Shown: positions 1-50,858 of the stretch, in pieces
How the letters are laid out: the number at the start of each line of letters is the position of its first letter
How positions within the stretch are numbered: the stretch's first letter is position 1
DNA from: Anniella stebbinsi
Lineage: Eukaryota > Chordata > Lepidosauria > Squamata > Anniellidae
Direction of reading: 5' to 3'
Length of the DNA stretch: 64,000 bases
NCBI GenBank assembly: GCA_029215795.1
Contig: JARDYH010000007.1
Coordinates: 74,721,763 to 74,785,762, forward strand
Position numbers and translations under genes: made by a program
Notes under the pieces: model-generated
Databases searched by the model: none
What the model saw: only the letters and a program-made list of their open reading frames with translations
Told to the model about the DNA's origin: nothing

Positions 1-330
1 TCTGCATAATTTAAGTAGTGCATAGTTAAATTACAGATTTCCCTACCTACATTATGTAGTGATGGCCACCAATATGGATGGCTCTAAAAGGAGGTTGGAT
101 AAATTCCTTGAGGGGAAGACAATCAATGGCTTCTAGCCCTGATGGTTATGTGCTACCTCCAGTATCCGAGGCAGTAAGTTTGTGTGCACCAGTTGCTGGG
201 GAACATGGATGGCAGGGTGTTGTTGCACCATGTCCTGCTTTGTTGGTCCCTGGTCGAAAGCTGGTTGGCCACTCTGTGAACAGAGTGCTGGACTAGATGG
301 ATCCTCAGTCTCATCCAGCAGAGCTCTTCT
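1..330 (+). repeat. CR1-like LINE 3' end, copy 1
   Basis: The sequence resembles the end of CR1 ORF2 and its 3'UTR (GATGGCCACCAAT, CTGGACTAGATGGA). The same family occurs at 3,154-3,490 and 55,455-55,765. Its first 70 bases match those of the 3,154 copy almost exactly. Confidence 0.6.
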
Positions 331-618
331 GATGTTCTAATGTCCCCCCAACCATTTATTGGCCAGAGAAATTGAGGCCATGGATACCTGGTATGAAAAT
401 GGCCTCCCAAGATTCTTCTCCCTATTCGAGAGCAGAACCATTGGGGTGGCCATTTTGACAAACGTTCTCTGGTGGAAAGAGATAGAATTCTCCCAGAGTC
501 CGGAAAGAATATTCTTAGAACATTTTGGCTTAGTGAATACAATTTACTGGTTCACCTGAATTTGATTCAAACTCCATTCTATGTTTATTTGTGTGAAGTA
601 TTGGTTTTTGTCTTTCAG

Positions 619-642
619 AAACTAGAAGAAGTACCTGAACTG
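619..642 (+). CDS. 24-nt exon, KLEEVPEL
   Basis: The acceptor is GTCTTTCAG and the donor GTAAGA. Eight codons in phase 0. It lies about 0.6 kb after a CR1 fragment, as does the next exon. Confidence 0.6.
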
Positions 643-11934: not shown

Positions 11935-12093
11935 TTTGAGAAGTCAGGTTTCTTTATTTGCAAAAGGGGTGATGTGGCAAAAAACTGCAGTGCAGATGGG
12001 CTTATCTTCTGCAAAAGTCACTCAAGAAATCATGACAGAACCCTGGTGAATAGCATCTGGGCAGCTTAGTGGTGGACCTTTCAGAGTCTAATA
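11935..12093 (-). CDS. Terminal exon: one codon, stop and 3'UTR
   Basis: After the acceptor TTCTACAG at 12,094 the exon reads TAT TAG, so it adds one Tyr and stops at 12,088-12,090. About 150 nt of 3'UTR follow, with AATAAA at 11,953-11,958. The left end is an estimate, 10-25 nt past that signal. A stop placed at the very start of the last exon is normal for nonsense-mediated-decay rules. Confidence 0.62.
11953..11958 (-). terminator. Polyadenylation signal of the microexon-array gene
   Basis: AATAAA on the minus strand, about 130 nt after the stop codon. A GA/CA microsatellite lies just beyond it, in the gap between the two convergent genes. Confidence 0.6.
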
Positions 12094-15000
12094 CTGTAGA
12101 AGGAGAAAAGAAACACGGGTAAGATTTCAAACCATAAAGAGCTGCAATGGGACATTTTTTTTAAAAAAAGCTTAGTTTTTAGATCTGGCATTGAGATAAA
12201 AGCTCATTTTAAGGAAGGAAGAAGAACCAAGCGGAACTGACGACAGCAGTTGAAGTTCTATATTTACATTGCTACATGATGCTAAATTCATGGCCCCTAC
12301 GCCAGTGGTATTGCCTGCACTTAAGCCCTAAGGATGAATTCCTGATCTTTCCCAAGCTATTAGCTGTGGTCACTAAATGGAGCTTCCATATACAGTGATA
12401 GTATACACAGTATGTCGAACCCCTTTTCAGCTTGAGGGCTGGATTCAATTTCGAAGAAGCTGTTGGAGGCGGCATTCCTTTGTCTTGAAACCCTGGGAAA
12501 CCTTCCTGCCTGAAACCCTGGGAAACCATGCCAGTCAGTGTCAACAATACTGGGCTAGATGAACCAATGGTCTGACTCAGTATAAGGCAGCTTCCTATGT
12601 TCCTAATAGCTGCCTGGCAGACAAGTATTACCACTTCCATGCTGGAAATAGCTATGGGAGAAGCAAAATGAGAGATCTACCCATCCCTATTAGATGGAGC
12701 TGTGGTCTATTTTAGCCAGGCAAGTATCACGTATCACATTGCCACACCAGCCCCTGCTGAGAAGACTGAGGGCTTCTCTTAACTAGCTATTTATAGTGTG
12801 CTTGTGACTGGCCACTCAAGGAATTTTCTGGATGGATTATATGATGCTGTAAACCTCCAGTATCTCTCTCGTTCTTTGGAAGAATTTCTGTGGCTTAATT
12901 TGAAACAGAAAAGCACCCCACCTAGTAACAAAAAGACACCCTCCCTTTCAGTTTCAGCATGTAAAGAGGAAATCGCGATATAAGAAGAGGTAGACTACAT
13001 CGCCATCTTGTGGCTGTATAAATGAAACATATAGAACTGCTAGTTAAAGGGGAAAAGATGCAGTAAAGTTGTGGGATATTCCCTGGCAAAATGCTCTGAA
13101 ACAATATGTCATTTTTATCTTATTATTATGTTGAAAAGTAACTCTATATGATATCACCAATGTCCGGGTAGCAGCTGACTTTCCCCAGTGAGGTAGTCTC
13201 AGTATCTTTTTGCCCTTAAACTCTGTAACTGAGTGAAGGTTCAAACAAAGAGTTACTAATGCTCACCCTGATATCGATATCATCCTTATCACTCTGTAAG
13301 GCAGAACAAAACAAAACAAGAGTGTTATTCCTGCAAATACCAGATTCAAATCCATGATCTCTTAGTTGTAGCACAGACCCCTTTGGCTTGAAGAATGCTC
13401 AAGCATTTATCACGAATTGTTCCCACTTTATACTGACTCAAGAGGAAAGTTTTTTAAAAAAAAAACAAATAAATAAATCAGATATTCTTTAAAATGTCTG
13501 CATGAAACCCCTCAAGTCATCACTATTTGATAATCGTCACTATATTATTTATACAGCAGCATGATTTGCCATGGCAGCTAGATAATTAAGATCAATGTTG
13601 TTAATCCAAAGTCCTTCATACTTTAGATAGCTCCAGTAGAGTTCTGATTGGTTCTGACTGAAACCCAAAGTGGACTCACCACCCCACTGACATCAGAGCC
13701 ACCAGCATCCACTGGTTGGAGGTTTGCTTCTGCCATGGGCTATGGGTTACATCCATCAATTCAGCATCAGTATTACAATCTCCTGTCTTTGGGGACAACG
13801 GCTTGGATCCAGACATAGTCATATTTCAACCAGACCCATTCAAATCAATGATAATTAATTCAGTCATGACTCAGTGAAGTCCCATTCATTTCGTTTGATC
13901 TACTCTAAGAGTGACTTTGTCTAGATCGCACACAGTAAGTATGATTCAAGGTATATGTTACCCTATAAAGCCCTAAACAACTTGGGACCAGCATGCCTAG
14001 CAGACCGCCTTCCCTTATATAAACCCAGATGACATTTACGATCTTAAGAGGAAGTCCTGCTGGCCATTCTGAAACGAATGGAATGCCGCCACGAGGAACC
14101 ACAGCGGCAGGCCTTCTTGGTAGTGGCACCCAGCCTTTGGAAAACCCTCCCTCATGCAGTTCGGGAGGTGGAAAATGTAATAACTTTTAAACGCCTCCTA
14201 AAAACGTACTTCTTCACCCAGCCTTTTGCAACGTTTTAAATTCATTGTGTACTTGTTGTATTTTTATGGTTTTAATTGTGCACTGACTGGGGAGCCTCAG
14301 CTATCAGGCAGTATAAAAATGTAATAAATAAATAAATCATAGCAGTATGTATCTGAAAGGAATTTCAAGAAGAGGGGAGCTTTAAAACTTAACAAGAGTG
14401 TGCTGCACTTGGAATTGTTATGGAACGAGAACTCATTGGGGTCATTGGTGTGTGGCAGGAGAATTCTGGGGCAGAGAGAATCCATGGATGCTAAATTCGA
14501 TTGGGGCACGAAGAGGAAAACAACTGCATGCTCTTAAAGAACTGAACGTTTCCAATCCTGTTGCGTTCTTGGGAATGGTCCCAGAGGAACTGTTTGCAAT
14601 GTGTCCTGTCCAGTTTCTGGGGAAGCGATCCAGCACGTAGCTCCAAAGATATCAAATGGATTCCGTGGAAGTATTTTGTTGGGAATTGAAGGGAACGATA
14701 GGGGTGACTATGACCTTCCCATAGCTGCTGGATCCCCAGAAATAGCTGTAGAGCAGGGATGGGCAGCTTCAGACAGTTCTGGTGCCAATTTCCCCACTGG
14801 ACCCACTGTGGGCTGCAGTCTTACTACTGCTGCTATGTCCAATAGGAGGGGGAGGTCACATTCTAAGCTTAGGATGGACAACTATAGCTTAAGCCAGATT
14901 TCTCCAATCAAAGCCTCCATAGCAGTTTGCTGCTGAATTTCACTCTTTTTTTCCCTCTTGGGGAAAAAAAAATGAATAGGGCAATGAGGGGCAATGGGGA

Positions 15001-16190
15001 ATAGTGAGGGCTGTCCTGGGGGTTTGGCACAGAAATACCAATCAATAATATTCATTATTATTTATTGTATTTCTATACCCACCCCCATAGCTGAGGTGGT
15101 TTACTGGGTGATTTACAAATCAGACAGGCCAAGATACTACCTCTGTCCTTGTTGAGTTACATCATCGTCTACAGCAGGAGTGGGGAACATCAGGCCAGGG
15201 GCCAAATACGGCCTTTGGGATTCCCTCTTGGGTTGTCCAGAAGGACACATACTTTCCCCTGGCTCCACTCCCTTTGAGCTCAGACCAATCAGAGCCTATC
15301 CCATCTGTGGAATCTCCAAGACTCAAGGGGTACCTGTCATTGGAAGGCTTTGTACATAACAAACATAACAAAATCCCCGACGGAGCTTAAGGCTTTTTTC
15401 CCTTTAACCACTAGATGGCAGGAAAATACTATGAGATCAGGGTTGCTGTTGCAGTGGCCAGAGCAACTGTGATAATCAAAGGGATACATTTGGCATCTGC
15501 TGCAACCTGGTAATGAAACCCTAAGAAGTACAGAGGACTCATCCGATCTTCAATCTGGTAGCCCAATGCGGGACACAACAATTCAGGGTACGTTGATTTT
15601 ATGTTGATTTCGCTAGCTGGGAAGGTAAGACATAATAATTCCAAGATGTGGTAGAACCCAGAACCATTTGCCTTAGGTAGCACTGAATGAAGTGTCCTCT
15701 AACAAGTTCAGAAAACCCCAGAAGACCCTTTCCTAATACCATCCATACCCCATGTTCCTTCTACATGAATCTGAAACAAACCTGTTGGGGACTGTGTCCA
15801 AATGTCAATTTCCTTAAAATGTTGTGGCCACCTTTCCAACCCAAATGAATGCCCAACACAGTTTCCCTTCTGGGAGTGCTTGGCCTGTCATGAATGAAGA
15901 CTTTGGGATTTTTTTTTTTATTAATCAAACACAGGGAGTAAGTAGCGACAATAAATATTACAAGGTGATAGATTAAAAATGAATCACAAGCTCTTGAGGA
16001 TACTCACTCCTGGAGCAGCAGCATAGACGTTCTGCAATTTTAAAAAATAAATAAAAGGTGGGGACAGTTAAGAATATTCACAAATCTCAAAGCACGGTGT
16101 CCTCTGATTTTGAGTTTTAAGCAGTGATGAACAACAATTATATTTCCACTGCAAAGATACTCTGTCCTACAAAATTCAGTTCGTGAAGGT

Positions 16191-16234
<44 letters not shown>

Positions 16235-19200
16235 AAACACACACACACACACTCTGATGTAATATAATATATAATTATCTTAGCCATCATGTAAGGGTGT
16301 CCTTTTAAATAAACACTGCAAATAATACTGTCTTTTCTCCCTTTCTATTCCATCTATCTGGAGCTACTTCCCAAAATACTATTGTGCTGCAACCTTTCTC
16401 CTTCTCCACCCTTTGAGGTTCTTCCTAAACCCCCTCCACATTTCTATAAACCTTTCGTATCCCCTAATGAAACTAAGCCCATGGATGCAGAACTAAATTG
16501 AATGTTCATTCTTGCCATTTCTCCACACCTATATACTCATCTTCCTCCCTCCCTTGTATTGGAGTTTTTAGGTAGTAAACTCCATGAGGCAGAGACCTGT
16601 CTTATTCTTAACACTCGCTTATCCACTGTGCACTCTGGCATTCCTACAGAATGTCTCAAAGAGAAGGAAGCAGAACCAATTCCAAAGTCTCTTGAAGTGG
16701 TAAGGAGAGACCATCTCTCTACTGAGAATGGGGCAATTGGCATCAGCTTCAAAATGCTGAGGAACTCTGGGTACCACTACTTACATTGTTGCCATTGCCT
16801 CCTACACCATTGTTGCCAAATGTGTTAGTTTGATCAACGTTGCCTCCATTCTGGAAAGAAGAAGGGAAAACATCTTGTTAGGTGGATGAATGATGGTGGA
16901 AGGGGAAAGCACCTAAACTCCCTGCAGTGAAGTCCATGTCAGAGGATGTGAGCAGCATCTACTGGAATTTAAAAGATCCCCCCCCCCCCCAGCCACACAA
17001 AGATCACTATCCTGATCGGTCTACCTATCGTTACTCTAGGGTAAAAAATGAAATAGGATGTAGCTGCTAGATATGGATTTAAAGTTATATCTCATTGGCC
17101 CTTATAAGCACAGAGGCCTTGTCCTATTTTTAGTACAGCAGTTCTGTTTGGGGCATGGAATTTGGAGTAGGATGAATTAAAATTGAGGCTGAATTGTGGC
17201 AATTCCAGGGGCGGGAGGTAGACCTGATAGACCATTGCATACATGGCCTAATTAAAGTGTCCTCCCCCGAACCACACATCACTGGCTGTCCCTTAAAGAC
17301 ACTTCAATACTCTGCTCATAAAAACGTGTTACCACATGAACCCCAGATCAATTTACCAAGGGTGCTGTGAACTAAAAACTTCTCTTACAAATAAACAAAT
17401 CCTTGAAGGTCTGATAAAGAGCCTTCTGCTGTCATTCATTCCGCATGTGACCTCATTAATCCCAAATAAATAAGTCAGGTACATTGTCCACATGTTGACT
17501 TCTTTAAGCGCTTTAGACCACTTTTCCACCCCAAGGAATGCCAACAAAGTTGTCCATAAACTAGTTCTGTGGATGTCATAGACCTTGGGGTTATCAGGCT
17601 ATTAGAACCCAGAATCTAGGAAATTATATTAAATATTTGAAGGCAATGGTCTTGGATCACTTGTACTAATGGATACTTACTCCTGGAGCAGCTGCATAGA
17701 CATTCTGCAATTAAAAACAGAAATGAAAAGTGAGAACAGTTAAAAATGTTCACACATATCAAAATACAGTGTCCTCTGGTTTTGATTTTTAAGCAGTGAT
17801 GAACTACAATTATTTCAACTGCAAAAATGCTCTGTCCAACGAGATTCAGTTCATGAAGGTGGGATAATGTCTATATATTCTGATGTAATATAAATGTCTG
17901 TGTTATCTTGTCAGGGCCCCCTTTGAAATAAACACTTCAAATGATATTGTGTTTTCTCCATTTCTCATCCTTCTATCTCGAGCTACTTCCCCAAATACTT
18001 TTATGGTACAACCTTTCTCCTTCTCCACCCATTGAGGTTCTTTCTCAACCCCTCTCTATTTCAACAAACCTTTGATATCCCCTAATGGGACAAGCCCCAA
18101 TGTTCATTCTTGCAATTTCTCCACACATATTTATTCTTCTTCCCTCAACTATTGTATTGATGTTTTTAGCTGGTCAACTCCATGAGGGAGAGACATTTCT
18201 TCACTCAGTTGAACATTGAGCATTCTGGCATTCCGATAAAATGTCTCAAAGATAAGGAAACAGAAACATTCCCAATGTCTCTTGCAATGTTAAGGAGAGA
18301 ACATTTCTCTCCTGAGTATGGGGCAATTGGCATCAGCTTCAAAATGCAGAGGAATTCTGGGTACCGCTACTTACGCCATTGCCATTGCCTCCAACACCAT
18401 TGTTGCCAAATGTGTCAGTTTGTTTTACGTTGCCTCCATTCTGCAAAGAAGAAGGAAAAGCATCTTTTTAGGTGGATGAATGACCGTGGATAGGGAAAAC
18501 AACCTAACGCCCTGCAGGGAAGTCCATGTCAGAGGATGTGAGCAGCATCTACTGGAATTTAAATGCTCCCCTACTGGCCACACAAAGATCACAATCCTGT
18601 TTAGTTTCCCTATCCTTACTCTAGGATTAAAAATGAAAAAGGATGTAGCTGCTAGATATGGATTTAAAGTTATATTCTCATTGGCCCTTAGAAGCACAGA
18701 GGCCTGGTACTGTTTTCAGTACAGTAGTCCTGTATGGGACATAGAATTTAGAGTAGGGTGATTTAAAGATGAGGCTGAATTGTGGCAATTCCAGGGGCAG
18801 GAGGTCGACCTGATAGACCATTGCCAACATGGCCTAATTAAAGTGTCCTCCCCCAGCTCACATATCCCAGGCTGTCCCTCAAAGACCCTTCCATACTCTT
18901 CTCATGCAGACATGTTACCACATGAACCCCAGATCAATTTACCTGGGTGCTGTAAACTGAAAACTTGTCTTACAAATAAACAAGTCCTTGAAGATTTGAT
19001 AAAGAGCCTTCTGCCCTCTGCTCATTATGCATGCAACCACATTAATCCCGAATGCTGAAGCTGGGAACATTGTCCACATGTTGACTTCTTTAAGAGACTT
19101 AGACCACCTTTCTACCCCAAGGAATGCCAACAAAGTTGTCATTAAACTAGTTCTGTGGATATCATAGACCTTGGCGTTAACAGGCTGTTAGAACCCAGGA

Positions 19201-22200
19201 TATAGAAAGACATATGAAATATTTGAAGGCAATGGTCTTGGATCTCTTGTACTATTGGATACTTACTCCTGGAGCAGCTGCATAGACATTCTGTAATTTA
19301 AAAAATAAATAAAACGTGGGGACAGTTAAGAATGTTCACAACTATCAAAGCACAGAGTCCTCTGATTTTGAGTTTTAAACGGTGATGAACAACAATTATA
19401 TTTCCACTGCAAAGATACTCTGTCCTACAAGATTCAGTTCATGAAGGTGGGATAATGTATATTAGGGATGTGCACGGCCAGAATCGGAATTGGATCGGAA
19501 TTTCCGATATTAAAAATATCGGATTCGATCATATTGGGGGTACCCGTATTTGATCGGATCCAATATCTGATAAATATCAGAAGTTCCAATCCTATTACAG
19601 AAAAACATTTGTGGTGTTTTTCCCATGGGCTTGTATTGGAGGAAAGAAAGCTTTCCCCCTATGAAAGTCTATGGGGAAAAACACTGGGCCAGCCCTCCCT
19701 CCCTCCCTCCCTCCCCACACTCGTGCTCCCTCCCCCCACATGCACTCCTTACCTGCCGCTGCTGTCGTCATCCAGCGTTGCCGCCCACCTGGTCCGTAGT
19801 ACTGATAAACAGGCTTTCCAGCCTGTTCCTCAGTACAGAGACGCACTGACTAATGATATCAATACTCGGAATGTCTCTGTACTAAGGAAGAGGCCGGAAA
19901 GCCTGTTTATCAGTACTACAGACCAAGCGGGTGGCAGCAGGGAAGGCTGCAGGTAAGGAGTGTGAGGGAGGAGGGGGGAGAGATCCCCCCTTACCTATGG
20001 CCTCCCCACTACTGCCCGCTTGGTCTGTCATACTGATAAATAGGCTTTCCAGCCTGTTCCTCAGTACAGAGACGTGCCGAGTGATGACATCATTACTCAG
20101 CGCGACTCTGTATTGATGAACAGGCCGGAAAGCCTGTTTATCAGTACAACTGAGCCAGCGGACGGCAGTGCAGGATGGCAGTGGTGACGGCAGCAGGTAA
20201 GGAGAGTTAGTGGTGGAGGGAGGGAGTGCTGGCCCAGTGTTTTCGCCATAGATTTGCATTGGGGAAAAGCTTTCTTTCCCCCAGTGCAAGTCTATGGCGA
20301 AAACACCTAAACTGGCAGTCCGAAAATCCGATATATCCGATAGTTATTGGATATATGGATATTGGATCTGTTCAGATAAGGCCTCCTTAGGAAATAATCT
20401 TTATTGGGCATCAGACCCGATATGATACACATCCCTAATGTATGTATATTCTGATGTAATATAATTGTCTGAGCCATTGTGTCAGGGCCCCTTTGAAATA
20501 AGCACTTCAAATGATACAGACTTTTCTCCCTTTCTAATCTATCTATCTAGAGCTACCTACCCAAATACTTTTGTGGTGCAACCTTTCTCATTCTCCACCC
20601 ATTGAGGTTTCTCCTCAACCGCCTCCCCATTTTTATAAATCTTTGATATCCCCTACCGAAACTTAGCGCAAGGATGTAGAACTCAACTGCATGTTCATTC
20701 TTGCCATTTCTCCACATCTATCTATATTTTTTCCTGCCTCCCATGAACTTATGTTTTTAGATGGTCAACTGCATGTGGCAGAGACCTTACTTCTTCTTAC
20801 CACTCACTTATGCACTGTGTACTCTGGCATTCCTATGAATGTCTCAAAGAGAAGGAACCAGAATCAATCCCCAAGTCTCTTGTTATGGTAAAGAGAGACC
20901 ATTTCTCTCCTGTGGATGGGGCAGTAGCCATCAGCTTCAAAATACAGAGGAACTCTGGGTACCACTACTTACATTGTTGCCGTTGCCTCCTACACCATTG
21001 TTGCCAAACGTGTCAGTTTGATCAACGTTGCCTCCATTCTGGATAGAAGAAGGAACAATATCTTGTTAGGTGGATGAATGATGGTGGATGGGGAAAACAA
21101 CATGTCAAAGGATGTGAGCAGCAACTAGTGGAATTTTAAAGCTCCCCTACTGGCCACACAAAGATCACAATCCTGATCAATCTACCTATCCTTATTCTAG
21201 GATTAAAAATGAAAAAGGATGTAGCTGCTAGATATGGATTTCAAGTTATCTCTGACTGGCCTTTAGAAGCACAGAGGCCTTGTCCTTTTTTCAGTACAGT
21301 AGTCATGTATAGGGCATCGAATCCAGAGTAGGATGATTTAAATTAAGGCTGAATAGTGGCAATTCCAGGGTCAGGAGGCAGACCTAATAGACCATTGCCT
21401 ACATGGCCTAATTAAAGTGTCCTCCCCCAATCCATACATCCCTGGATGTCCCTCAAGGACCATTCCATACTCTGCTCATACAGATGTTTTACCACATTAA
21501 CCCCAGATCAAGTTACCCTGGGTGCTGTGAACTGAAAACATGTCTTTCAAATAAACAAATCCTTGAAGGTCTGATAAAGAGCCTTCTGCACTCCACTCAT
21601 TCCACATGCAGCCACAATTATCCCGAATGCTCAAGTTGGGAACATTGTCCACATGTTGACTTCTTTAAGAGCGTTGACCACATTTCTATCACAAGGAACG
21701 CCAACAAAGTTGTCATTAAAATGGTTCTGTGGATATCATAGACCATGGCGTTAGCAAGCTGTTAGAACCCACGATATAGGAAGACATATGAAATATTTGA
21801 AGGCAATGGTCTTGGATCACTTGTACTATTGGATACTTACTCCTGGAGCAGCTGCATAGACGTTCTGCAATAAAAAAAATAAAAATAAAAGGTAGGGACA
21901 GTTAAGAATGTTCACAAATGTCAAAGCACAGAGTCCTTTGATTCTCCCTTTCTGATCCATCTATCTGGAGCTGCCAAACAAATACTTTTGTGGTGCAACC
22001 TTTCTCCTTCCCCAGCCTTTGAGGTTCCTCCTCAACCCCCTCCATATTTCTATAAACCTTTGATATCCCCTCATGGAACTAAGCCCACAGATGTAGTACT
22101 AAACTGGATGATAATTCTTGCCATCTCTCCACACCTATATATTTTTCTTCCTCCCTCCCTTGTATTGAAGTTTTTAGATGGTCAACTTTGTGAGGCAGAG

Positions 22201-25200
22201 ACCTTTCTTCTTAAAAGTAGGGATGTGCACTGACCCCCCGGATCGGATCGGATAGCGGATCGGAATCGGACCTGGGGGGTCGGATCGGATCGGATCGGAT
22301 CGGAGGCTGGTCGGATCGGATCGGACCAGATGTCCGATCCGGATCGGACGCCATTTTGAATGCTTTTTCCCATAGCCAAGTATTGTTTTACAAAAATGCC
22401 TATAACTTTTTCATTTTTAAAGATAGAAGGATGAAACTTGGGCACATTGTAGACTGGTTAGGGGTAGTTATCTGTGAGAAATTTCAGAAAGATTGGTGCA
22501 TGCATTTTGTGGCAATTAATTTTTTAATAAATACCCAGGAATGCCTATAACTTTGTCATTTTTAAAGTTACACACATGAAACTTTGCCACATTGTAGGGG
22601 GTACCTTGGGACCTATGTGTGTGAAATTTCAGAAACGTAGGTGCTTGTCTTGTGTGGCAATTAATTTTTAGAAAAATGGGTAGTAGTGGGGTAAATACAG
22701 TTACGCCTCCCATTTTTTTATTTTTGAAGATACAAACAGGAAACTTGGGCACATTACAGGTACCACTTGCCTTGAAATGTGTGTGAAATTTCAGAAACAT
22801 TGGAGCTTTCCTTGTGTGGCAATTAATTTTTGAAACAATGAGGAAAGAAACACCTATAACTTTGTCATTTTTAAAGTTACACACATGAAACTTTGCCACA
22901 TTGTAGGTGGTACCTTGGGACCCATGTGTGTGAAATTTCGGAAACGTAGGTGCTTGCCTTGTGTGGCAATTAATTTTTTAATAAATACCCAGGAATGCCT
23001 ATAACTTTGTCATTTTTAAAGTTACACACATGAAACTTTGCCACATTGTAGGCGGTACCTTGGGACCTATGTGTGTGAAATTTCGGAAACGTAGGTGCTT
23101 GCCTTGTGTGGCAATTAATTTTAGAAAAATGGGTAGTGGTGGGGTAAATACAGTTACGCCTCCCACTTTTTTATTTTTGAAGATACAAACAGGAAACATG
23201 GGCACATTACAGGTACCACTTGGCTTGATATGTGTGTAAAATTTCAGACAGCTGGGTCCAGGCATGTGGTGGCAAGGTATTTTTGAAACAATGAGGAAAG
23301 AAACGCCTATAACTTTTTTATTTTAAAAGTTAGAAGTCTGAACATTGCTCACTTTGTAGATGGGTTAGGGGTAGATATGTGTCAGAAATTTCAGAATGAT
23401 AGGTCCAGGCATTTGATGGCTATGGAATTTTTAAATTACATGTTTCAAAAAAATTTCTACAGAGGCCAGGTCTTCCCCTCCCGCTTCCCGCGAAGAAAAG
23501 GAAACACTCTCTCGTCTCGATCCCTTTGAAGTTGCTAGTAGTATCCATTACAGGGCTCGTGTTTCCTTTCCTCCTTTCACTTTTCAAGCAGAACGGCTGA
23601 GCCTAGCTGAGTTTTGCAGCCATGCGTGCAAGGAAGGATCACTCTGGTCTCGATCCCTTTGATCCTTGGTAGTATCCATTACAGGGCTCGTGTCTGCTTT
23701 CACTTTGTACTCAAGCAGACACGAGCCCTGTAATGGATACTACTAGCAAGGATCAAAGGGATCGAGACGAGAGAGTGTTTCCTTTTCTTCGCGGGAAGCG
23801 GGAGGGGAAGACCTGGCCTCTGTAGAAATTTTTTTGAAACATGTAATTTAAAAATTCCATAGCCATCAAATGCCTGGACCTATCATTCTGAAATTTCTGA
23901 CACATATCTACCCCTAACCCATCTACAAAGTGAGCAATGTTCAGACTTCTAACTTTTAAAATAAAAAAGTTATAGGCGTTTCTTTCCTCATTGTTTCAAA
24001 AATACCTTGCCACCACATGCCTGGACCCAGCTGTCTGAAATTTTACACACATATCAAGCCAAGTGGTACCTGTAATGTGCCCATGTTTCCTGTTTGTATC
24101 TTCAAAAATAAAAAAGTGGGAGGCGTAACTGTATTTACCCCACCACTACCCATTTTTCTAAAATTAATTGCCACACAAGGCAAGCACCTACGTTTCCGAA
24201 ATTTCACACACATGGGTCCCAAGGTACCACCTACAATGTGGCAAAGTTTCATGTGTGTAACTTTAAAAATGACAAAGTTATAGGTGTTTCTTTCCTCATT
24301 GTTTCAAAAATTAATTGCCACACAAGGAAAGCTCCAATGTTTCTGAAATTTCACACACATATCAAGGCAAGTGGTACCTGTAATGTGCCCAAGTTTCCTG
24401 TTTGTATCTTCAAAAATAAAAAATGGGAGGCGTAACTGTATTTACCCCACTACTACCCATTTTTCTAAAAATTAATTGCCACACAAGACAAGCACCTACG
24501 TTTCTGAAATTTCACACACATAGGTCCCAAGGTACCCCCTACAATGTGGCAAAGTTTCATGTGTGTAACTTTAAAAATGACAAAGTTATAGGCATTCCTG
24601 GGTATTTATTAAAAAATTAATTGCCACAAAATGCATGCACCAATCTTTCTGAAATTTCTCACAGATAACTACCCCTAACCAGTCTACAATGTGCCCAAGT
24701 TTCATCCTTCTATCTTTAAAAATGAAAAAGTTATAGGCGTTTTTGTAAAACAATACTTGGCTATGGGAAAAAGCATTCAAAATGGCGTCCGATCCGGATC
24801 GGACCTCATCGGATCGGATCGGATCGGAGGTTGTCCGGATCGGATCGGATCGGATCGGATTTTCCCGATTTTGGGTCGGATCGGATTCGGATCGTGGATC
24901 GGATCCGATCCGATGCACACCCCTACTTAAAAGCACTCACTTGAACAATATGCACTCTGGCATTACTATAGAATGTCTCAAAGAGAAGGAAGCAGAAACA
25001 ATCCCAAAGTCTCTTGCAATGGTAAGGAGAGACCATTTCTCTATTGAGGATGGGGCAAGTGGCATCCACTTCAAAATGCAGAGGAACTCTGGGTACCATT
25101 ACTTACGCCATTGCCATTGCCTCCTACGCCATTGTTGCCAAACGTGTTAGTTTGATCAACGTTGCCTCCATTCTGGAAAGAGGAAAAGCATCTTGTTAGG

Positions 25201-40200: not shown

Positions 40201-43200
40201 CCTTAGAATTTGACAGTGGTATGGTTTAGAAAGGCTGCTCTTATCTGTCTTGCAGCTAGCGCAAATACAGCTATCCTACAGCTGATGGATTTATCAACAT
40301 CAGCCAACCACCATCTGATTTTAGAATCATCTGTACGGCCTTCTAAGGTGGTCTGAAAAGGGAGAATAAATTTAGCCCTGGGCGAATTGTATAATGGACA
40401 ATACAATATATAATGTACAAGATCTTCAATATGTCCTGAGTCACATATGCAAAAATGCTCTTTTCCAGGTCTATTGGAAAATCTTCCAGCCAGATACTGA
40501 GTGGGCATCATTTGAAATCTGAGCTGGGTAAAAAACCATGTCTAACAGGGAAAAAAAATAATTCTTGCAAGTAAATAGCCCCTTTATGATCTATTTTAAT
40601 TTTGGTATACCAAGTAGCACGTTTGCAGTTTTTTTTATAGATTCAGAATCTCTTTTGGCATCTTCACCAAAGACAATATCTCGAATCTTGCGATCAGATA
40701 CATCCTGCATTGTTGTTGTTAAGCAGGTTGAGTAGCTCAACATCAGGCATCTACAAGATGGTGCCCATCCTTCTCTATTCTGCAAATCCAAAAAGCAGAA
40801 TTTTGCTATATGTTGTTCTGACAGCGATTGTAATTTTTTTCCAATACAATAGTGTGCTTTTGTGTATACGTGCTTTTAGGGAAGGAAGACCTACTTCAGT
40901 CCTTAATAATTCACCAGGCATACTGTGCGACACTACCAAGAGTGTACGCCAAAACTTCTTTTGAATAACATCAAGTTCATCTTTGCAGTGGCTGCCCCAG
41001 ATTGATGCACTGTATAAGAGATGGGACACAACCTTAGCTACAAAACCTTTAGTGTTGGTTCTACTAGATGGTGGCCCTCTGTGCAATACAATTTCTTTAT
41101 GGGCCTTAACTGGCAGGCCGCTGAAGATGTAATTGCCTACAAATGGGTATGCCAAAGGGTATTTTCAGAGAAGTTAAGCCCTAAATATTTAAATGAATGG
41201 CATTGTGCAATGCTATGGCCATCCAGAGTCCATTTGTGCTGCTCATGCCTTTTGGCAAACACGGCCACTTTTGTTTGATTATAGTTAATGGATAGGCCTT
41301 CCTGCTTACAGTAGTTTCCAAATTTAGTAAGTAATCTTCTCATACCAGTTTGAGTTAATGAAATAAGTGCCATATCAACCGCATAAAGCAGAACTGGGAT
41401 TTTCTGTTTCCCAACTGCAGGGGGAAAGTAGGCAGCAGAAGAAAGCTCCTGGGTTCTGTCGTTTATATAAAGGTTAAATAAGAGCGGTGCCAGGATACAG
41501 CCTTGTTTGACTCCCCTCACTGTTGGCATTGATTCAGAAAGAGAACCCGCCATGCCAACTCGAATTCTGATATTAGTGTTAGAATAGAGTTGCTACACAA
41601 GGAACAGCAGATGTTTGTTATGGATACTTACTCCTGGAGCAGCTGCATAGACATTCTGCAAAAGAAAGAGAGGGAAGATGTGTAAGAACATCCACCGATA
41701 CCCAAGCTTTTTCACCCTGATTTATTGTTTTTATAGCAGTAAGGAAAAACAATTATATCCTCCACAGAAAAAAGACTCTGTTTCTAAAGATACCATCAAT
41801 GAAGATGGAATCATGCACTACAGCCACTAGGGCAGGACAAGCATAAGCATAGATCCCCTACTCTCTCAAATGACTCAACAATTTCTCCCCTTTTTCCTGG
41901 AAACATCTCCCTAAACACATTTGTGATTAACAATGGGCTCATCTATACCTGCAGCCCTTTGGGGAGTGGGGAGGGACGGTCACGGTGTTTTCCACTTCCA
42001 GAATCATCTTTCAGGGGCCAGACGCCTGCAAATCATCCTGGAAGTAAAGAGGGATGTTCCAGGATGCAATTGTGTGTTGTTGTTTTTTAAAAAAGAGGAG
42101 ACATTTGCACAATTGTGCAGGCGCAATCCTGCATGGAGCATTTTTTTTAAAAAAACAAATACAACAAGATGCCAAGCCCCATCCCAAAGACGGCAAAAAT
42201 GCTCTCCTCCTCACCCCCAATGCCCACGGACTCCCCCGCACAGTTCCATGCCTGTTTTCTGAGCCCCAATACTCATGGGGAAGAGGGAGGAAACTGGGAG
42301 GGAGAGCCACACTGCCTGTGCAGCTCAGGATGGTCCCGAGACAGTGGGAAGCTGGGGAAAATGCAATCCCAGCTATCCCTAGAGAACTGAGTACTTGTCC
42401 CCAGTTCACCCCAGGATCAGCTGTGCATCATTTGGACTCGCAGGGATGACTTTGTGGCCACCCTGGGATAAATGGCAGGTGTAGACAAGCCCATTCTCTC
42501 TCCCCTTTGCTTCCAATCACTCAACATCTCCCCTTTCCCATAAACCCTTGGCGTCCCCTAGTGAAGAAAAGTCCAAGAACATAGAACTCTAAATTATAGG
42601 CATACTCTTGTGCTTCACCTTCATCTACATCCTTTACCCCTAACACCATTTTCTGAAATCTTGACAGTAAATTCCCCAAGTCAAGGGGATTTCTTCTTAT
42701 CATTACTCAGTGAAGTGCAATGCATGATGATATGACTACAGAATATGAAGAGAAAGAATACAAAATCAACTGGCAAAAATGTGACAACTGTAAGGCGAAA
42801 TCATTGTTCTATGAGGGTAGCATAATACTGATCAGCTCATACTGCAGAGGAATTCTGGGTACCAATACTTACACCATCGCCGTTGCCTCCGACTTTATTG
42901 CCACCCCATATATTAGTCTGATCAATATCACCTCCTTTCTATAAAGAAAAAGAAAGATTATCTTAGGAGGAAAGGCAACAAAACTACCTGGAGTCTGGGT
43001 AGAATTTGGACTGAAGTAACAGTGGTGGATAAGATTTTTTTTTTTGTCTTATAAAGTTCCAGATGTGCTTTCAGAACATATCAGAATATAGTAATTGATA
43101 TGTGCAAAATAAAATCCACGAAACTTGGATTTCTTGGATTGAGAACTTCCAGGTCAATGGTTGTAGCTATGAGATAAAGTTCAGACCTAAGAAGTTTCTT

Positions 43201-49200: not shown

Positions 49201-50778
49201 AAGAATTGAGAAAGGCAACAGGAGGAGCGTGTACATTTTCTCTCAGAGAGATCCTAAGGTTTTGATGTCTGTTCCAGTGTTTTTGGGGAACACATTGTGG
49301 GCAGGCGGGAAGGATGCACACGGAGATCTGTTAGACTGAAAAGAAACAGCTCCTTCCCACTCAGTTGTCCCCCTGGTGGTTTCTACAGCCTTCCATGCGG
49401 ATCGTTTCAATCGAGTAGCTCTTTGCAATGACAAGCAACGACGCATATGCCCGCTGCAAAATATTTTGTTGGTTGATATACTGGCCAATAACTGGCAGAA
49501 TTTTGTATATCATTATTATGTTCTTTGAAATCCACTGATTTTACAACGGATGTCAAAAACAATAAACAAATAATGATACTACCGAGAAAGGCAAAAACAT
49601 ATGCAACATAGTCAGGCCCCAGGCCCCCTTCCGGACCGCCGGGCCCCGGTAATTTGTACTGGCTCCCCCCCTCTCGTCGACCCTAACTTGAAGCACCATT
49701 TTTCTTGGTAGAAAGGAGGGTACAAATCAAAGGAAGAAGGAAGGAAACAAGGAAGGAAGGAAAATCAAAACAACTGTTTTCTATCAATAGTTAGCACCCG
49801 GACAGCAGACAGTACAAGCAGGCACACTGGTCATGTACTCATAGACTTCTGCACTATGGTTAGATGTACTGCATTTCTATTTAAATTCTATGAATAATTC
49901 CTAAATTTACAGCTATACATATAAATCAGCATATGCAAATTTTATATAAATCAGCATCCTGTTTTGCCCCATTTTTTGGCGATTTGTAAGTGATCACTCT
50001 ATTACCACTAAAGCTAAAATGATTACAGGGCTGCGGGTAACGGCCCAATCTTAAAGACACCTTCCTAGTTCAAATTTTCTTACAACCATTGAAAATTATA
50101 TCCATCTATGTTCCACCTAATATTCCTGCTCAGTTATGGACCCTGTTAATCCAGGAAAAGAATGAGCAAACACATCACAGCACAGAGTTTGTCAAGACAA
50201 TATTTAACGCGATTGCCAAGACCTGTCAAAACATTTTGCTGCATGAGCCAAAATGCCCCACCTCTGCCATTCCATGCATGTAAGCTAAACTGGATTAGCA
50301 GTTGAATCTTAGTACAATACTTGTGACATGACAGCATCCTCCACCACACCTGAGGGCCAGAAGGGTGCATGACAGGCTGCATGATAGATGCAGCTCAGTC
50401 CTTCAACATCCCACCCTGTCTTCCCATCATACACTGCCGAAGGCAGCTGCCTGGCCCTGCTTAACAGTAGGGCCGGTCCTCATGGTTGCCTTAAACTATT
50501 TTGATACACAGCTTAAGATGATGTTTCCTATAGGTGTCACTGCACCCCACTTAGAAAACACCTGGAAAGCTTTGGACTTTGAGAACTCAGACTTGATATC
50601 CGAAATTTGGCCAGATTTCAATGTATGCGAAATTGAATTTTGTCTTAAAGCAGCCCGCCTCGTGGCTGCTGTCCATCACCCAGTAAGCCATGTTCATCCT
50701 TACCGCAGGTGCAGCTCTGGTGCTCTGCAGGTAGAGCAGACAGGTGGCAAGGAAAGCAACCACCACGTGCATCTTCAT
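12088..50778 (-). CDS. Tandem-microexon gene for a secreted Gly/Asn-rich repeat protein (whole coding span)
   Basis: The coding span runs on the minus strand from the ATG at 50,778 to the TAG at 12,088-12,090. I see a 25-codon signal-peptide exon, ten 66-nt A exons alternating with ten 24-nt B exons, a 27-nt acidic exon, and a terminal exon coding one Tyr then stop. Every exon has AG and GT borders and a length divisible by three, so all introns are phase 0. The product would be about 335 residues: a cleaved leader, then repeats of a Gly/Asn-rich 22-residue block and an eight-residue NVYAAAPG block, then SDKDDIDIR-Y. No domain, cysteine pattern or catalytic motif is visible in the repeats. 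The design suggests a structural or matrix-type secreted protein; that is inference. Serial phase-0 microexons resemble SCPP genes, but SCPP genes usually have a non-coding first exon, which is not seen here. Further exons may be missed, especially between 42,938 and 50,704. Confidence 0.72.
12440..12605 (+). repeat. SINE 3' part (tRNA-type squamate family)
   Basis: It contains GCCAGTCAGTGTCAACAATACTG-like sequence, a GGGCTAGATGAACC stretch and GTCTGACTCAGTATAAGGCA. These are typical of the 3' region of a common squamate SINE. The 5' tRNA-like head is missing. Confidence 0.5.
13267..13293 (-). CDS. Acidic 27-nt exon near the C-terminus
   Basis: Twenty-seven nt between CCTTACAG and GTGAGC, encoding SDKDDIDIR. 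Phase 0 on both sides lets it join B1 and the terminal exon in frame. Four of nine residues are Asp, unlike the neutral repeats, so it gives the protein an acidic tail. The call rests on splice motifs and frame only. Confidence 0.6.
13294..13937 (-). other. Intron, nothing recognised
   Basis: Lies between the acidic exon and an L2-like fragment. No further phase-0 exon with good borders was found. Confidence 0.35.
13938..14338 (+). mobile_element. L2-like LINE 3' end
   Basis: Broken plus-strand frames encode pieces such as LGPACLADRLP and VAPSLWKTLPHAVREV, typical of the C-terminal part of L2/CR1-clade ORF2. The end is GTATAAAAATG then (AATA)n. It is truncated and carries frameshifts. Confidence 0.6.
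14339..15999 (-). other. Intron between exon B1 and the acidic exon
   Basis: No exon seen. A LINE 3' tail remnant lies at about 15,040-15,125 (TATTTATTGTATTTCTATACC). The part from about 15,480 to 15,560 still resembles array intron sequence, so the array once reached at least this far. Confidence 0.4.
16008..16031 (-). CDS. Exon B1 (last B exon of the array)
   Basis: Twenty-four nt encoding NVYAAAPG. Its donor is GTGAGT instead of the GTAAGT used by the other nine B exons. No further array unit is visible downstream in the transcript. Confidence 0.82.
16195..16252. repeat. (AT)n then (CA)n microsatellite
   Basis: About 17 AT units followed by nine CA units, within the array. Confidence 0.95.
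16785..16850 (-). CDS. Exon A1 (last A exon of the array)
   Basis: Sixty-six nt, acceptor TTTCCAG, donor GTAAGT. It starts NGGNVDQTNTFG and ends VGGNGNN. Confidence 0.83.
17357..17371 (-). CDS. Candidate 15-nt exon C1
   Basis: Fifteen nt between ...TTTTTAG and GTAAAT, translating to FTAPL. It sits between exons B2 and A1. Phase 0 would be kept. The acceptor is weaker than in other units because CAG has become TAG. Confidence 0.3.
17681..17704 (-). CDS. Exon B2
   Basis: Twenty-four nt encoding NVYAAAPG, acceptor ATTGCAG, donor GTAAGT. It is 1,586 bp from B3. Confidence 0.83.
18375..18440 (-). CDS. Exon A2
   Basis: Sixty-six nt, acceptor TTTGCAG, donor GTAAGT. It starts NGGNVKQTDTFG and ends VGGNGNG. 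Lys-6 replaces the Asp found in every other A exon. Confidence 0.82.
18943..18956 (-). pseudogene. Decayed C block (C2), 14 nt
   Basis: The same block as C1 with one base deleted next to the donor, so inclusion would shift the frame. It keeps TTTTCAG and GTAAAT borders. If C is a true exon, this copy must be skipped. Confidence 0.3.
19267..19290 (-). CDS. Exon B3
   Basis: Twenty-four nt encoding NVYAAAPG. The acceptor is ATTACAG rather than ATTGCAG; the donor is GTAAGT. Confidence 0.82.
19463..20437. mobile_element. hAT-like fold-back element (975 bp) in the array
   Basis: Ends TAGGGATGTGCAC and ATACACATCCCTA are near-complementary. Flanks ATGTATAT and ATGTATGT agree at seven of eight bases. 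Inner segments around AGGCTTTCCAGCCTGTTCC and its complement recur as two inverted pairs (about 19,800-19,925 and 20,025-20,155). It splits the intron between A3 and B3. Confidence 0.75.
20973..21038 (-). CDS. Exon A3
   Basis: Sixty-six nt, acceptor CTATCCAG, donor GTAAGT. It starts NGGNVDQTDTFG and ends VGGNGNN. The intron to B3 contains a 975-bp fold-back element. Confidence 0.83.
21517..21531 (-). CDS. Candidate 15-nt exon C3
   Basis: Fifteen nt between TTTTCAG and GTAACT, encoding FTAPR, between B4 and A3. This is the commonest form of the block. Confidence 0.35.
21841..21864 (-). CDS. Exon B4
   Basis: Twenty-four nt encoding NVYAAAPG, acceptor TTGCAG, donor GTAAGT. Confidence 0.83.
22218..24925. 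mobile_element. hAT-like fold-back element (2.7 kb palindrome)
   Basis: Ends TAGGGATGTGCAC and TGCACACCCCTA, flanked by a perfect 8-bp duplication CTTAAAAG (22,210-22,217 and 24,926-24,933). Both ends carry runs of GGATC-type pentamers. Long arms mirror around about 23,570. The interior is AT-rich with repeated CCTATAACTTT blocks. No transposase frame is seen, so it is non-autonomous. It lies in the intron between A4 and B4. Confidence 0.82.
25107..25172 (-). CDS. Exon A4
   Basis: Sixty-six nt, acceptor TTTCCAG, donor GTAAGT. It starts NGGNVDQTNTFG and ends VGGNGNG. A 2.7-kb fold-back element follows about 180 nt downstream in the intron. Confidence 0.83.
25685..25699 (-). CDS. Candidate 15-nt exon C4 (divergent)
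   Basis: Fifteen nt between TTTTCAG and GTAAAC, encoding YMVPK. Borders and length hold, but four of five residues differ from FTAPR, so there is little sign of protein-level constraint. Confidence 0.28.
26009..26032 (-). CDS. Exon B5
   Basis: Twenty-four nt encoding NVYAAAPG, acceptor ATTGCAG, donor GTAAGT. Confidence 0.83.
26719..26784 (-). CDS. Exon A5
   Basis: Sixty-six nt, acceptor CTATCCAG, donor GTAAGT. It starts NGGNIDQTDTFG and ends VGGNGNG. Confidence 0.83.
27282..27296 (-). pseudogene. C block with lost donor (C5)
   Basis: The block is present, but the donor GTAACT reads CTAACT, so splicing at this site should fail. Confidence 0.3.
27607..27630 (-). CDS. Exon B6
   Basis: Twenty-four nt encoding NVYAAAPG, normal GT-AG borders. 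It is 1,598 bp from B5. Confidence 0.83.
28327..28392 (-). CDS. Exon A6
   Basis: Sixty-six nt with TTTCCAG acceptor and GTAAGT donor. It starts NGGNIDQTNTFG and ends VGGNGNN; the last residue is Asn as in A1 and A3. Confidence 0.83.
28853..28867 (-). CDS. Candidate 15-nt exon C6
   Basis: Fifteen nt between TTTTCAG and GTAACT encoding FTAPR, placed between B7 and A6. Confidence 0.35.
29166..29189 (-). CDS. Exon B7
   Basis: Twenty-four nt encoding NVYAAAPG with a TTGCAG acceptor and GTAAGT donor. It is 1,559 bp from B6. Confidence 0.83.
29872..29937 (-). CDS. Exon A7
   Basis: Sixty-six nt, acceptor CTATCCAG, donor GTAAGT. The block starts NGGNVDQTDTFG and ends VGGNGNG, the commonest form of exon A in this array. 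Confidence 0.83.
30437..30451 (-). CDS. Candidate 15-nt exon C7
   Basis: Fifteen nt between TTTTCAG and GTAACT encoding FTAPR, placed between B8 and A7. Confidence 0.35.
30761..30784 (-). CDS. Exon B8
   Basis: Twenty-four nt encoding NVYAAAPG, acceptor ATTGCAG, donor GTAAGT. It lies 1,595 bp from B7, one array period. Confidence 0.83.
31463..31528 (-). CDS. Exon A8
   Basis: Sixty-six nt, acceptor ATTCCAG, donor GTAAGT. It starts NGGNIDQTNTHG and ends AVGGNGNG, the same protein sequence as A9. A 1,058-bp fold-back element separates it from the C-like block upstream. Confidence 0.82.
31839..32896. mobile_element. hAT-like fold-back element (1.06 kb), diverged
   Basis: Ends CAAGGATGTGCAC and TGCACATTCCTA, flanked by a perfect ATTCAGAG duplication (31,831-31,838 and 32,897-32,904). 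Sister units lack the insert at this point. Internal blocks resemble those of the 2.7-kb and 5.4-kb elements but are more diverged, so this is an older relative. Confidence 0.78.
33091..33105 (-). CDS. Candidate 15-nt exon C8
   Basis: Fifteen nt between TTTTCAG and GTAAAT, encoding FMAHR, between B9 and A8. A fold-back element now lies between it and A8. Confidence 0.3.
33386..33409 (-). CDS. Exon B9
   Basis: Twenty-four nt encoding NVYAAAPG with AG and GTAAGT borders. The valine-tyrosine codons read GTGTAT rather than GTCTAT, a silent difference from the other copies. A hAT-like MITE lies between A9 and this exon. Confidence 0.82.
33911..34230. mobile_element. hAT-like MITE, family 1, copy b
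   Basis: TAGGCTGACC to GGTCAGCCTA, flanked by GTCAACTC on both sides (33,903-33,910 and 34,231-34,238). Sister units read GGTCAACTCCATGAGG without the insert, proving the duplication. Confidence 0.9.
34432..34497 (-). CDS. Exon A9
   Basis: Sixty-six nt with acceptor ATTCCAG and donor GTAAGT. The block starts NGGNIDQTNTHG and ends AVGGNGNG. It shares the unusual His-11 and Ala-15 with A8, which points to a recent duplication of these two units. The intron upstream of it is expanded by a 5.4-kb fold-back element and a LINE. Confidence 0.82.
36640..37010 (+). other. GC-rich segment in the left arm of the 5.4-kb palindrome
   Basis: About 370 bp rich in GC and CpG (GCCGGCG, GCGCGCGC) inside an AT-rich element. 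It is mirrored at 37,622-37,993. Several frames are open across it but none resembles a known protein. It may be a captured piece of host DNA such as a promoter or first exon; that is inference. Confidence 0.5.
37225..37426. mobile_element. Family-1-like MITE in the loop of the palindrome
   Basis: GATGACCATATGAAAAGG at the left and GTCATATGGTCA at the right bound about 200 bp with the GGAATTTCAGCAGGTG core of the family. Ends are diverged. Confidence 0.6.
37622..37993 (-). other. GC-rich segment in the right arm of the 5.4-kb palindrome
   Basis: Mirror copy of 36,640-37,010. The only difference I noticed is one base in the ATGATGAACAGG stretch. Confidence 0.5.
40046..41600 (-). mobile_element. 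5'-truncated LINE with broken reverse transcriptase
   Basis: Four successive minus-strand frames give RT pieces: VRGVKQGCILAPLLFNLYIN at 41,490-41,550, then LLYAVDMALI where YADD is expected, KYLGLNF, and a C-terminal part with FCICDSGHIEDLVHYI followed by CPLYNSPRAKF, a zinc-knuckle-like end. The YADD to YAVD change and the frameshifts make it inactive. It is a non-LTR element; the clade is not assigned. It sits just beside exon B10 and has replaced or removed the array sequence there. Confidence 0.7.
41632..41655 (-). CDS. Exon B10
   Basis: Twenty-four nt between ...TTTTGCAG and GTAAGTA, encoding NVYAAAPG. It is 1.2 kb downstream of A10 in the transcript. A truncated LINE ends about 30 nt away on its 3' side. 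Confidence 0.8.
41935..42492. mobile_element. MITE-like inverted-repeat element
   Basis: GGGCTCATCTATACCTGC at the left is near-complementary to GCAGGTGTAGACAAGCCC at the right. It lies in the intron between A10 and B10. No target duplication could be set. Confidence 0.55.
42873..42938 (-). CDS. Exon A10 (first array A exon, divergent)
   Basis: Sixty-six nt between ...TTATAG and GTAAGT. It encodes 22 residues that start KGGDIDQTNIW and end KVGGNGDG. It is the most divergent A exon (Lys at position 1, Trp at 11, acidic substitutions) but keeps length, frame and splice sites. It is the first A exon met in transcription, 7.8 kb after the signal exon. A broken relative lies upstream near 43,310. 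Confidence 0.75.
43290..43330 (-). pseudogene. Degenerate A-exon remnant upstream of A10
   Basis: On the minus strand, after ATTGTAG, the sequence reads AACGGAGGTGACATTGG, matching the start of exon A (NGGDIGQ). The match then fades and no donor is seen where exon A should end. Flanking intron sequence on both sides also resembles the A10 flank, so this is a broken older array unit. Confidence 0.5.
43340..45075 (-). other. Intron with diverged array-derived segments
   Basis: Segments at about 43,195-43,290 and 45,005-45,075 resemble each other (a stretch reading TTCTTGGTAAAT or similar, then CTTGTAA). The stretches near 44,075-44,110 and 45,380-45,415 share GAGTTTGCTATT. They look like remnants of duplicated intron. 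One 18-nt stretch at 45,376-45,393 has AG and GTGAGT borders and phase 0 (QTHSLK), but its acceptor tract is poor. Confidence 0.3.
44842..45010. mobile_element. Partial family-1 MITE
   Basis: TAGACTGACCATATGAAAAG starts a copy of the family, which ends early after ACAAAAGAGGGCAGGGCTC. Confidence 0.55.
45423..45556. mobile_element. Small inverted-repeat element (MITE)
   Basis: CAGAATCTACACTACTGC at the left and GTGTAGATCTGGCC at the right. A related copy lies at about 51,745-51,885. Confidence 0.5.
45593..45903. mobile_element. hAT-like MITE, family 1, copy d
   Basis: Starts TAGGCTGACAATATG and ends GGTCAGCCTA. The flanks match only in part, so the duplication has decayed. Confidence 0.8.
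45991..46540 (-). mobile_element. Degenerate transposase-like fragment, possibly hAT
   Basis: Two overlapping minus-strand frames read KIERYKKAVEYYSVAM, then after a frameshift KPSNISLNDPVCDIP. Ser/Thr-rich sequence before a PSNISLNDP-like motif recalls the start of some hAT transposases. The edge near 45,991 reads TAGGCGTGCACAGCC, similar to hAT ends in this window. The assignment is weak. Confidence 0.35.
46541..48080. other. Intron, no exon called
   Basis: A minus-strand Pro-rich stretch at 47,111-47,145 (ISPPPASPTPQP) has AG and GTAAGC borders but is 35 nt long, which breaks phase 0, so it is not called. Other parts show nothing recognised. Confidence 0.35.
48085..48215 (+). repeat. Diverged tRNA-derived SINE
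   Basis: GGTTCAGTGGGAGAACATAT, GCTTTGCATGCAAAAGAT and the GAAAGACTTCCACCTGAGAG block match a common squamate tRNA-related SINE. The B-box region is lost. Confidence 0.5.
48292..49013. mobile_element. hAT-like MITE, family 1, copy e, split by a LINE
   Basis: TAGGTTGACC to GGTCAGCCTA with a perfect GTCTAGCA duplication (48,284-48,291 and 49,014-49,021). The middle is replaced by a LINE fragment at about 48,513-48,945; roughly 30 bp of the MITE are missing at the join. Confidence 0.85.
48513..48948 (-). mobile_element. LINE 3' end nested in the MITE (L2/CR1 clade)
   Basis: A 92-codon open frame contains HGLGPGYLRDRLLPYNPPR and PRLWNGLPEEIRQISSLLEF, the C-terminal part of an L2/CR1-clade ORF2. 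Its 3' tail gives the TTTCATTTCATTT run at the left edge. The same family recurs at the right end of the window. Confidence 0.7.
49022..50703. other. Intron 1, 3' flank of the signal exon
   Basis: No exon called. About 49,785-49,970 is a dispersed repeat that recurs at 53,505-53,670 (GACAGCAGACA, GCACACTGGTCATG-like and ATGCAAATTTTAT blocks). A GGAA-rich run lies near 49,735-49,765. Confidence 0.4.
50704..50778 (-). CDS. Exon 1: signal peptide
   Basis: Twenty-five codons begin MKMHVVVAFLATCLLYLQ and end STRAAPA, followed by the donor GTAAGG. The basic start, hydrophobic core of about 14 residues and small residues around TRA-AP form a typical secretory leader, with likely cleavage after TRA. 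The first ATG was chosen because it follows the 5'UTR directly; a second in-frame ATG lies two codons later and would give almost the same leader. The exon keeps phase 0 at its donor, matching all downstream exons. Confidence 0.8.
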
Positions 50779-50849: not shown

Positions 50850-50858
50850 CTATTTATA
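50850..50858 (-). promoter_or_regulatory. TATA box of the microexon-array gene
   Basis: Read on the minus strand this is TATAAATAG, preceded by CAG. It lies 72 nt upstream of the ATG at 50,778. A start site about 25-30 nt downstream would fall near 50,825 and leave a 5'UTR of about 45-50 nt with no upstream ATG. The position fits a TATA-driven, tissue-restricted secretory gene. Confidence 0.75.

Follow-up and report, generated by a model that had tools for sequence, protein, structure and literature searches.

In elastin, the fibrillar collagens and the frog skin repeat proteins the protein repeats match in-phase exons, and the SCPP genes have a non-coding first exon and carry the signal peptide in exon 2. 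The genes of the epidermal differentiation complex (EDC), a different locus from the one described here, keep their repeat within one exon. According to PMC11431283, the squamate EDC consists of clustered genes for compositionally biased proteins of cornified surface cells. The micro-exon genes (MEGs) of Schistosoma, as characterised in part of PMC10526429, encode secreted proteins with a signal peptide and are built from 10–20 very short exons and long introns. A further group of interest is the mammalian SSC (suprabasin, dermokine and Krtdap), for which an excerpt of PMC12847941 gives the mouse order Tmem147, Gapdhs, Sbsn, Dmkn, Krtdap, Ffar2, Ffar3, Ffar1, Cd22, Mag, Hamp2, Hamp. Dermokine has many splice isoforms (PMC2394760, in part), and in the relevant part of PMC7831088 an orthologue of suprabasin is listed for 0 of 19 sauropsids and the gene is called likely mammal-specific.

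Here we analyzed a stretch of 64,000 nucleotides of the Anniella stebbinsi genome (the window, C7:74721763-74785762; the genome as searched comprises 1.89 Gb in 91 contigs). Its minus strand carries a gene, in the following called the window gene, with 20 microexons from position 42938 down to 16008, of which ten have 66 nt (A) and ten have 24 nt (B) in strict A/B order. All 20 are open and in phase 0, and each is preceded by AG and followed by GT. The A exons are flanked by AG and GTAAGT in 10/10 cases, and all ten B exons encode NVYAAAPG with the donor GTAAGT in nine and GTGAGT in one. Upstream, a TATAAA stands 80 nt 5' of the ATG of a hydrophobic N-terminal exon, and at the other end an exon with a tyrosine codon and a stop is followed by an AATAAA that begins 130 nt past the stop. 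Together with the additional 27-nt exon there are 21 internal exons of 24–66 nt, and the introns span 0.67–7.8 kb. The features of the window gene are:

50853..50858, minus strand: TATA box TATAAA (from the sequence)
50704..50778, minus strand: coding part of exon 1, 75 nt, putative signal peptide MKMHVVVAFLATCLLYLQSTRAAPA, phase-0 end at GTAAGG (from the sequence)
42873..42938, minus strand: A1 exon, KGGDIDQTNIWGGNKVGGNGDG, the most diverged copy
41632..41655, minus strand: B1 exon, NVYAAAPG
34432..34497, minus strand: A2 exon
33386..33409, minus strand: B2 exon
31463..31528, minus strand: A3 exon
30761..30784, minus strand: B3 exon
29872..29937, minus strand: A4 exon
29166..29189, minus strand: B4 exon
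28327..28392, minus strand: A5 exon
27607..27630, minus strand: B5 exon
26719..26784, minus strand: A6 exon
26009..26032, minus strand: B6 exon
25107..25172, minus strand: A7 exon
21841..21864, minus strand: B7 exon
20973..21038, minus strand: A8 exon
19267..19290, minus strand: B8 exon
18375..18440, minus strand: A9 exon
17681..17704, minus strand: B9 exon
16785..16850, minus strand: A10 exon
16008..16031, minus strand: B10 exon
13267..13293, minus strand: candidate 27-nt exon SDKDDIDIR, single copy, phase 0 (splice sites TTACAG and GTGAGC)
12088..12093, minus strand: start of the last exon, tyrosine codon and TAG stop
11953..11958, minus strand: polyadenylation signal AATAAA

The initial annotation had already described the alternating open phase-0 exons with GT-AG borders, the ten identical B peptides, the TATA box with a signal-peptide exon at one end and the stop exon with AATAAA at the other, all of which we found again; its inventory of repeated, first and stop exons holds as well, with the 27-nt exon to be added to it. 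It had also called the introns broken by transposons, and they do contain a reverse-transcriptase fragment, two apparent fold-back elements and smaller inserts. The reverse-transcriptase fragments of retrotransposons (PF00078) are found on the minus strand at 41137-41592, in an intron of the window gene, and at 59017-59787. The apparent fold-back elements, which are large (22221-24936 and 34626-39978), have CGGAT-type short repeats at their ends and contain 145- and 161-nt units in arrays, which are found again on the opposite strand. A tRNA-Phe called by ARAGORN inside an intron (19483-19572, plus strand) is probably spurious. The tandem duplication units measure about 1.6 kb, some of them being lengthened by inserts.

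With its putative signal peptide, very short internal exons and long introns the window gene resembles the MEGs, whereas it belongs to a vertebrate, its exons form a strictly alternating and nearly uniform pair in tandem, and two of its introns are longer than the 5 kb stated for MEGs in PMC10526429. The first-exon layout of the SCPP genes differs from that of the window gene as judged from the sequence, since a first intron would hardly fit into the short distance between TATA box and ATG. Elastin, the fibrillar collagens and the frog skin proteins are not known to be related to it in sequence, exon sizes or cluster.

The joined frame predicts a protein of 335 aa with 30-residue repeats. Its mature part of 313 aa (start taken at residue 23) contains 85 Gly, 75 Asn and 11 Tyr, no Cys and no Glu, and has a pI of 4.05; neither an N-glycosylation sequon nor a dibasic site was found in it. 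The product would be secreted and could reach 335 aa, a repeat protein that is acidic, free of cysteine and rich in Asn and Gly. As each repeat holds one Tyr and one Gln amid Asn and Gly, the composition suggests a disordered, cross-linkable component of an epithelial coat or gel. In the initial annotation a matrix, gel or adhesive role had been put forward tentatively, and it stays a conjecture here.

In order to judge whether the exons are coding we used the dN/dS between copies, a check that the initial annotation had proposed for the A copies. For the A and B exons of copies 2–10 pS is 0.190 and pN 0.054, giving a dN/dS of 0.26, and the A-to-B introns of the same copies show a p of 0.158 (six of ten introns, those below 1 kb). 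The B exons have no nonsynonymous difference across all ten copies. A neutral simulation was run on a tree from the intron flanks of copies 2–10, and 0/5000 runs had amino-acid differences as few as observed and 0/5000 kept all nine B peptides identical; these flanks (K 0.22) are more diverged than the compared introns, which makes the neutral test somewhat liberal, and no run was available for a comparison at matched nucleotide divergence. As 19.5% of the neutral runs were stop-free, the open frames alone are a weak argument and it is the amino-acid conservation that carries the coding case.

A dead or decaying gene, with exons conserved through the youth of the copies or through gene conversion, would fit with the fact that every copy lies in repeated units, with the transposons inside the introns and with a broken eleventh A-like exon (NGGDIGQNN...) at about 43322 on the minus strand, upstream of A1, which runs into unrelated sequence. 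Against this stands that the six compared introns differ by 12–18% between copies while frame, splice sites and amino acids are retained in the exons, that conversion would homogenise the flanks as well, and that no neutral run matched the observed conservation, so we regard decay as very improbable. Copy 1 points in the same direction: its B exon is 0.93–0.99 identical to the others (nine of ten B copies used), the sequence beside its exons is mostly 0.3–0.7 identical, with one stretch at 0.81–0.89, and portions of its introns align in BLAST at 62–70%. Judged by these values copy 1 is old, and an exon-only gene conversion that spares flanks only a few bases away is not a likely cause of the conservation. 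The purifying selection, the 20/20 splice sites and the similar neighbouring genes described below support the claim of the initial annotation that the exons are used as coding sequence, and the window gene appears to be a secreted, protein-coding tandem-microexon gene whose exons are presumably joined in an mRNA.

The 36 nt following the A donor inward into the intron are also conserved, with identities of 0.89, 0.94 and 0.81 per 12 nt between copy 1 and the others, whereas the A exon itself reaches 0.54–0.71 per 12 nt; between old and young copies this block is more alike than exon A or the nearby intron. Two examples are:

42837-42872, minus strand: 36-nt conserved intronic block
26683-26718, minus strand: 36-nt conserved intronic block

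Reading through the A donor in frame leads to a TGA after 11 codons in 10/10 copies, and a splicing enhancer or an alternative protein end would explain the block. Long duplexes between the block after A and the block before B were predicted, without a shuffle control, and by eye copy 1 has no counterpart on one side; we make no claim of such pairing.

A search of the genome with the A+B repeat gave at least six matches at E<=1e-3 (ten candidates scored), all six inside the window. The initial annotation had proposed a comparison with squamate proteomes, and a word-seeded search of 5.77 billion proteins, vertebrates included, which needs shared five-residue words and limits candidate length, matched no relative: for the 335-aa protein none of 176 word-sharing candidates reached E<=1e-3, and for a 95-aa version none of two candidates reached E<=10. 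At these thresholds no protein came up that would point to shared ancestry with the schistosome MEGs. Vertebrate annotation is present in this database, as a gastrokine query gave mammals, turtles, tuatara, lizards and snakes. No match was obtained in PDB and Rfam, and among the Pfam models only BBP1_N appeared for the predicted protein, below the cut-off (E 0.093).

A gastrokine derivative, in which the A+B unit is the linker before a BRICHOS domain and the linker was amplified after loss of the domain, was considered because NGGNVDQTNTFGN resembles the GKN2 linker NGGNVQETVTIDN. The mean score was reached by 1/500 column permutations and 0/500 linker shuffles (at most 12 linkers, selected from 108); in a comparison with gastrokine sequences 4/1000 shuffles did as well for GKN2 and 147/1000 for GKN1. 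However, the comparison was chosen post hoc, A1 as the most diverged copy gave poor alignments (scores of 18–23 in three of them), the scores of the Anolis and tuatara linkers were 30 and 31 compared to 42 for an ape, and Pfam finds no BRICHOS domain in the predicted protein. As the resemblance is suggestive but post hoc and copy A1 does not share it, we rejected it as the main reading and give it very little probability.

To the neighbourhood of the window gene we applied splice-site scans covering C7:74605000-74855762 (250.8 kb including the window). The threshold of these scans was loosened after a stricter one had missed known exons, and individual exons of the neighbour models may be wrong. 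Similar exon-like pairs were found 50 times in the 250.8 kb compared to none in any of 5 block shuffles, a count in which two pairs read as antisense or satellite duplicates and for which ordinary duplicated DNA is not accounted for by the shuffles; in the 70 kb to the right of the window the same scan gave no similar pairs. To the left of the window gene, five further first exons with a TATA-like box, a putative signal peptide and a phase-0 donor are present along with further arrays of phase-0 microexons. The predicted cluster comprises at least six genes on both strands, one of them (g4) being known only from its first exon. The locus drawn by the initial annotation stands for the window gene, but the neighbouring genes were missed, including one on the plus strand that reaches into the window from the left. 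This gene 2 (g2) has the putative signal peptide MTMLPLVATLFLVVSVHSL with a TATAAA 84 nt upstream, the exon lying 4.4 kb left of the window, and then exons of 51, 24, 51 and 24 nt, three of which are inside the window (1-3746). The 51-nt exons sit in an 809-bp duplication of 88.8% identity, and a 3' end of gene 2 was not found by the splice-site scan. Its exons in the window are:

619..642, plus strand: gene 2 exon KLEEVPEL, 24 nt (splice-site scan)
3057..3107, plus strand: gene 2 exon VNGELPVLNPLDPNLSD, 51 nt, duplicate of the exon just left of the window
3723..3746, plus strand: gene 2 exon LSVPENVP, 24 nt (splice-site scan)

Gene 3 (g3), on the minus strand, starts with the putative signal peptide MQFIFVAALLFVVPAQSW, has by eye a TATTAAA in place of the TATA box, and shows Gly-rich, acidic microexons, three kinds of which (78, 75 and 30 nt) are present twice. 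The remaining three first exons are on the plus strand and carry the putative signal peptides MTFQVVAAVLLVSVLCPKESAS (P2), MKLQVMAAVLLISLLCAKESSS (P3) and MFLHLVIPVLLTFVFCPKESIS (g4), each with a box 77 nt upstream, which reads TATAAA in P2 and P3 and CATAAA in g4. Behind P3, exons of 27 nt (NFLGGGLPS) alternate with exons of 21 nt (GALPPMP or GAFPPMP), one copy (74659957) having CT instead of the donor GT, and behind P2 there are exons of the LPFLGGGG- and LLGGGGG-like types; from order and strand these arrays would belong to P3 and P2. Another five exons of 21 nt each form a run at 74606288-74607447 with a spacing of about 288 nt. In C7:74618149-74631284, minus strand, recurrent exon-like stretches of 18 nt (GGHKIQ, ALVFTK) and a repeated one of 75 nt look like satellite rather than exons. 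Three sets of joined neighbour exons gave no match in Pfam.

The first exons were compared over the signal-peptide exon and the 100 nt upstream of the ATG, in 15 pairs with 2000 block shuffles each, and 10/15 pairs were alike beyond the shuffles. P2, P3 and g4 are plainly homologous to each other (z 28–57, 0/2000 shuffles). Four of the five neighbours resemble the window gene in first exon and promoter, namely P3 (z 7.6, 0/2000), g3 (2/2000), g2 (3/2000) and P2 (5/2000), and likeness was also found for g2 with P2 (0/2000) and g3 (1/2000) and for g3 with P2 (8/2000). It was weak or absent for the window gene with g4 (75 of 2000 shuffles), g2 with P3 (61) and g4 (248) and g3 with P3 (1032) and g4 (1412). 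In an earlier run with four genes the pairs window gene–g2, window gene–g3 and g2–g3 each gave 0/1000 shuffles, but scores as high as those of these pairs were also obtained with 2–5 of 167 control stretches that contain a TATA, a set in which the genes under study may be present. It is therefore likely that the first exons derive from one ancestor, though this is not proven for every gene.

The position of the cluster was determined with TMEM147 and HAMP, the only two markers placed, which had been named before the search as expected neighbours of the SSC, a locus suggested by the build and the predicted products of the cluster. The profile PF09767 (DUF2053), which we take to be TMEM147, has three matches in the genome, all at C7:75227464-75233291 to the right of the cluster, and hepcidin (HAMP) has a single match at C7:74427733 to the left. 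By these two markers the cluster lies in the interval that holds the SSC in mammals; relative to the cluster axis, however, each of the two markers points in the direction opposite to that in mouse, which means agreement in order and disagreement in strand. Given this interval, we most likely see in the cluster a positional counterpart of the SSC in sauropsids that has expanded by duplication of exon pairs, and the two may share common descent. Both have secreted, low-complexity products, predicted ones in the case of the cluster, whereas no sequence similarity was found in the comparisons with KRTDAP and dermokine given below and the cluster has exon-pair arrays and at least six genes on both strands compared to the three genes of the SSC.

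A real tandem-microexon cluster could also have arisen as a lineage-specific invention in the same interval, unrelated by descent to SBSN, DMKN and KRTDAP. This would agree with the strands of the flanking markers and with the missing matches: a human dermokine stretch did no better than shuffles (932/1000 reached its score), the large protein database gave no relative, and the KRTDAP model PF15200 matched neither the genome nor any of 14 controls (0/14), which makes the latter result uninformative. Regular expressions for KRTDAP-like motifs gave chance-like matches only. Such repeats lose similarity fast, however, which makes a missing match weak evidence, and the shared interval and the same general kind of product speak against an independent invention, which we consider rather unlikely. 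Our literature searches gave no description of NVYAAAPG, of squamate microexon or repetitive secreted genes or of tandem-exon mucins, and for dermokine and suprabasin in sauropsids none of such a cluster among the best 10 and 15 of many matches; judged by these searches alone, the cluster is unpublished.

Taking the evidence as a whole, the window gene is probably a working gene for a secreted repeat protein, belonging to a cluster, with six genes or more, that is the positional counterpart of the SSC and makes products of an epithelial surface. Its transcript would join the signal-peptide exon, ten copies of the duplicated 66 + 24 nt pair and the short tail exons. As all exons are in phase 0, the reading frame survives the skipping, gain or loss of any exon or pair, and the number of repeats would change in the DNA by duplication of the roughly 1.6-kb unit and by unequal exchange and might vary further by exon skipping in the RNA. 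The products of the cluster would most likely serve as a coating or filling at the surface of an epithelium, either stratified or mucous.

It is conceivable, although we put this forward tentatively, that sauropsids possess a micro-exon gene system of duplicated phase-0 pairs with variable repeats and isoforms that stands in the place of the SSC. If this is true, the SSC would be an amniote locus evolving by exon-pair amplification and not a mammalian novelty. Tandem-microexon genes may escape gene finders, as no relative of the window protein was found despite the squamate annotation in the database. If the cluster is expressed, it would add a set of secreted proteins and give the SSC a pre-mammalian history, and it would provide vertebrate proteins built by in-phase duplication of exon pairs, from two pairs in gene 2 to ten in the window gene.
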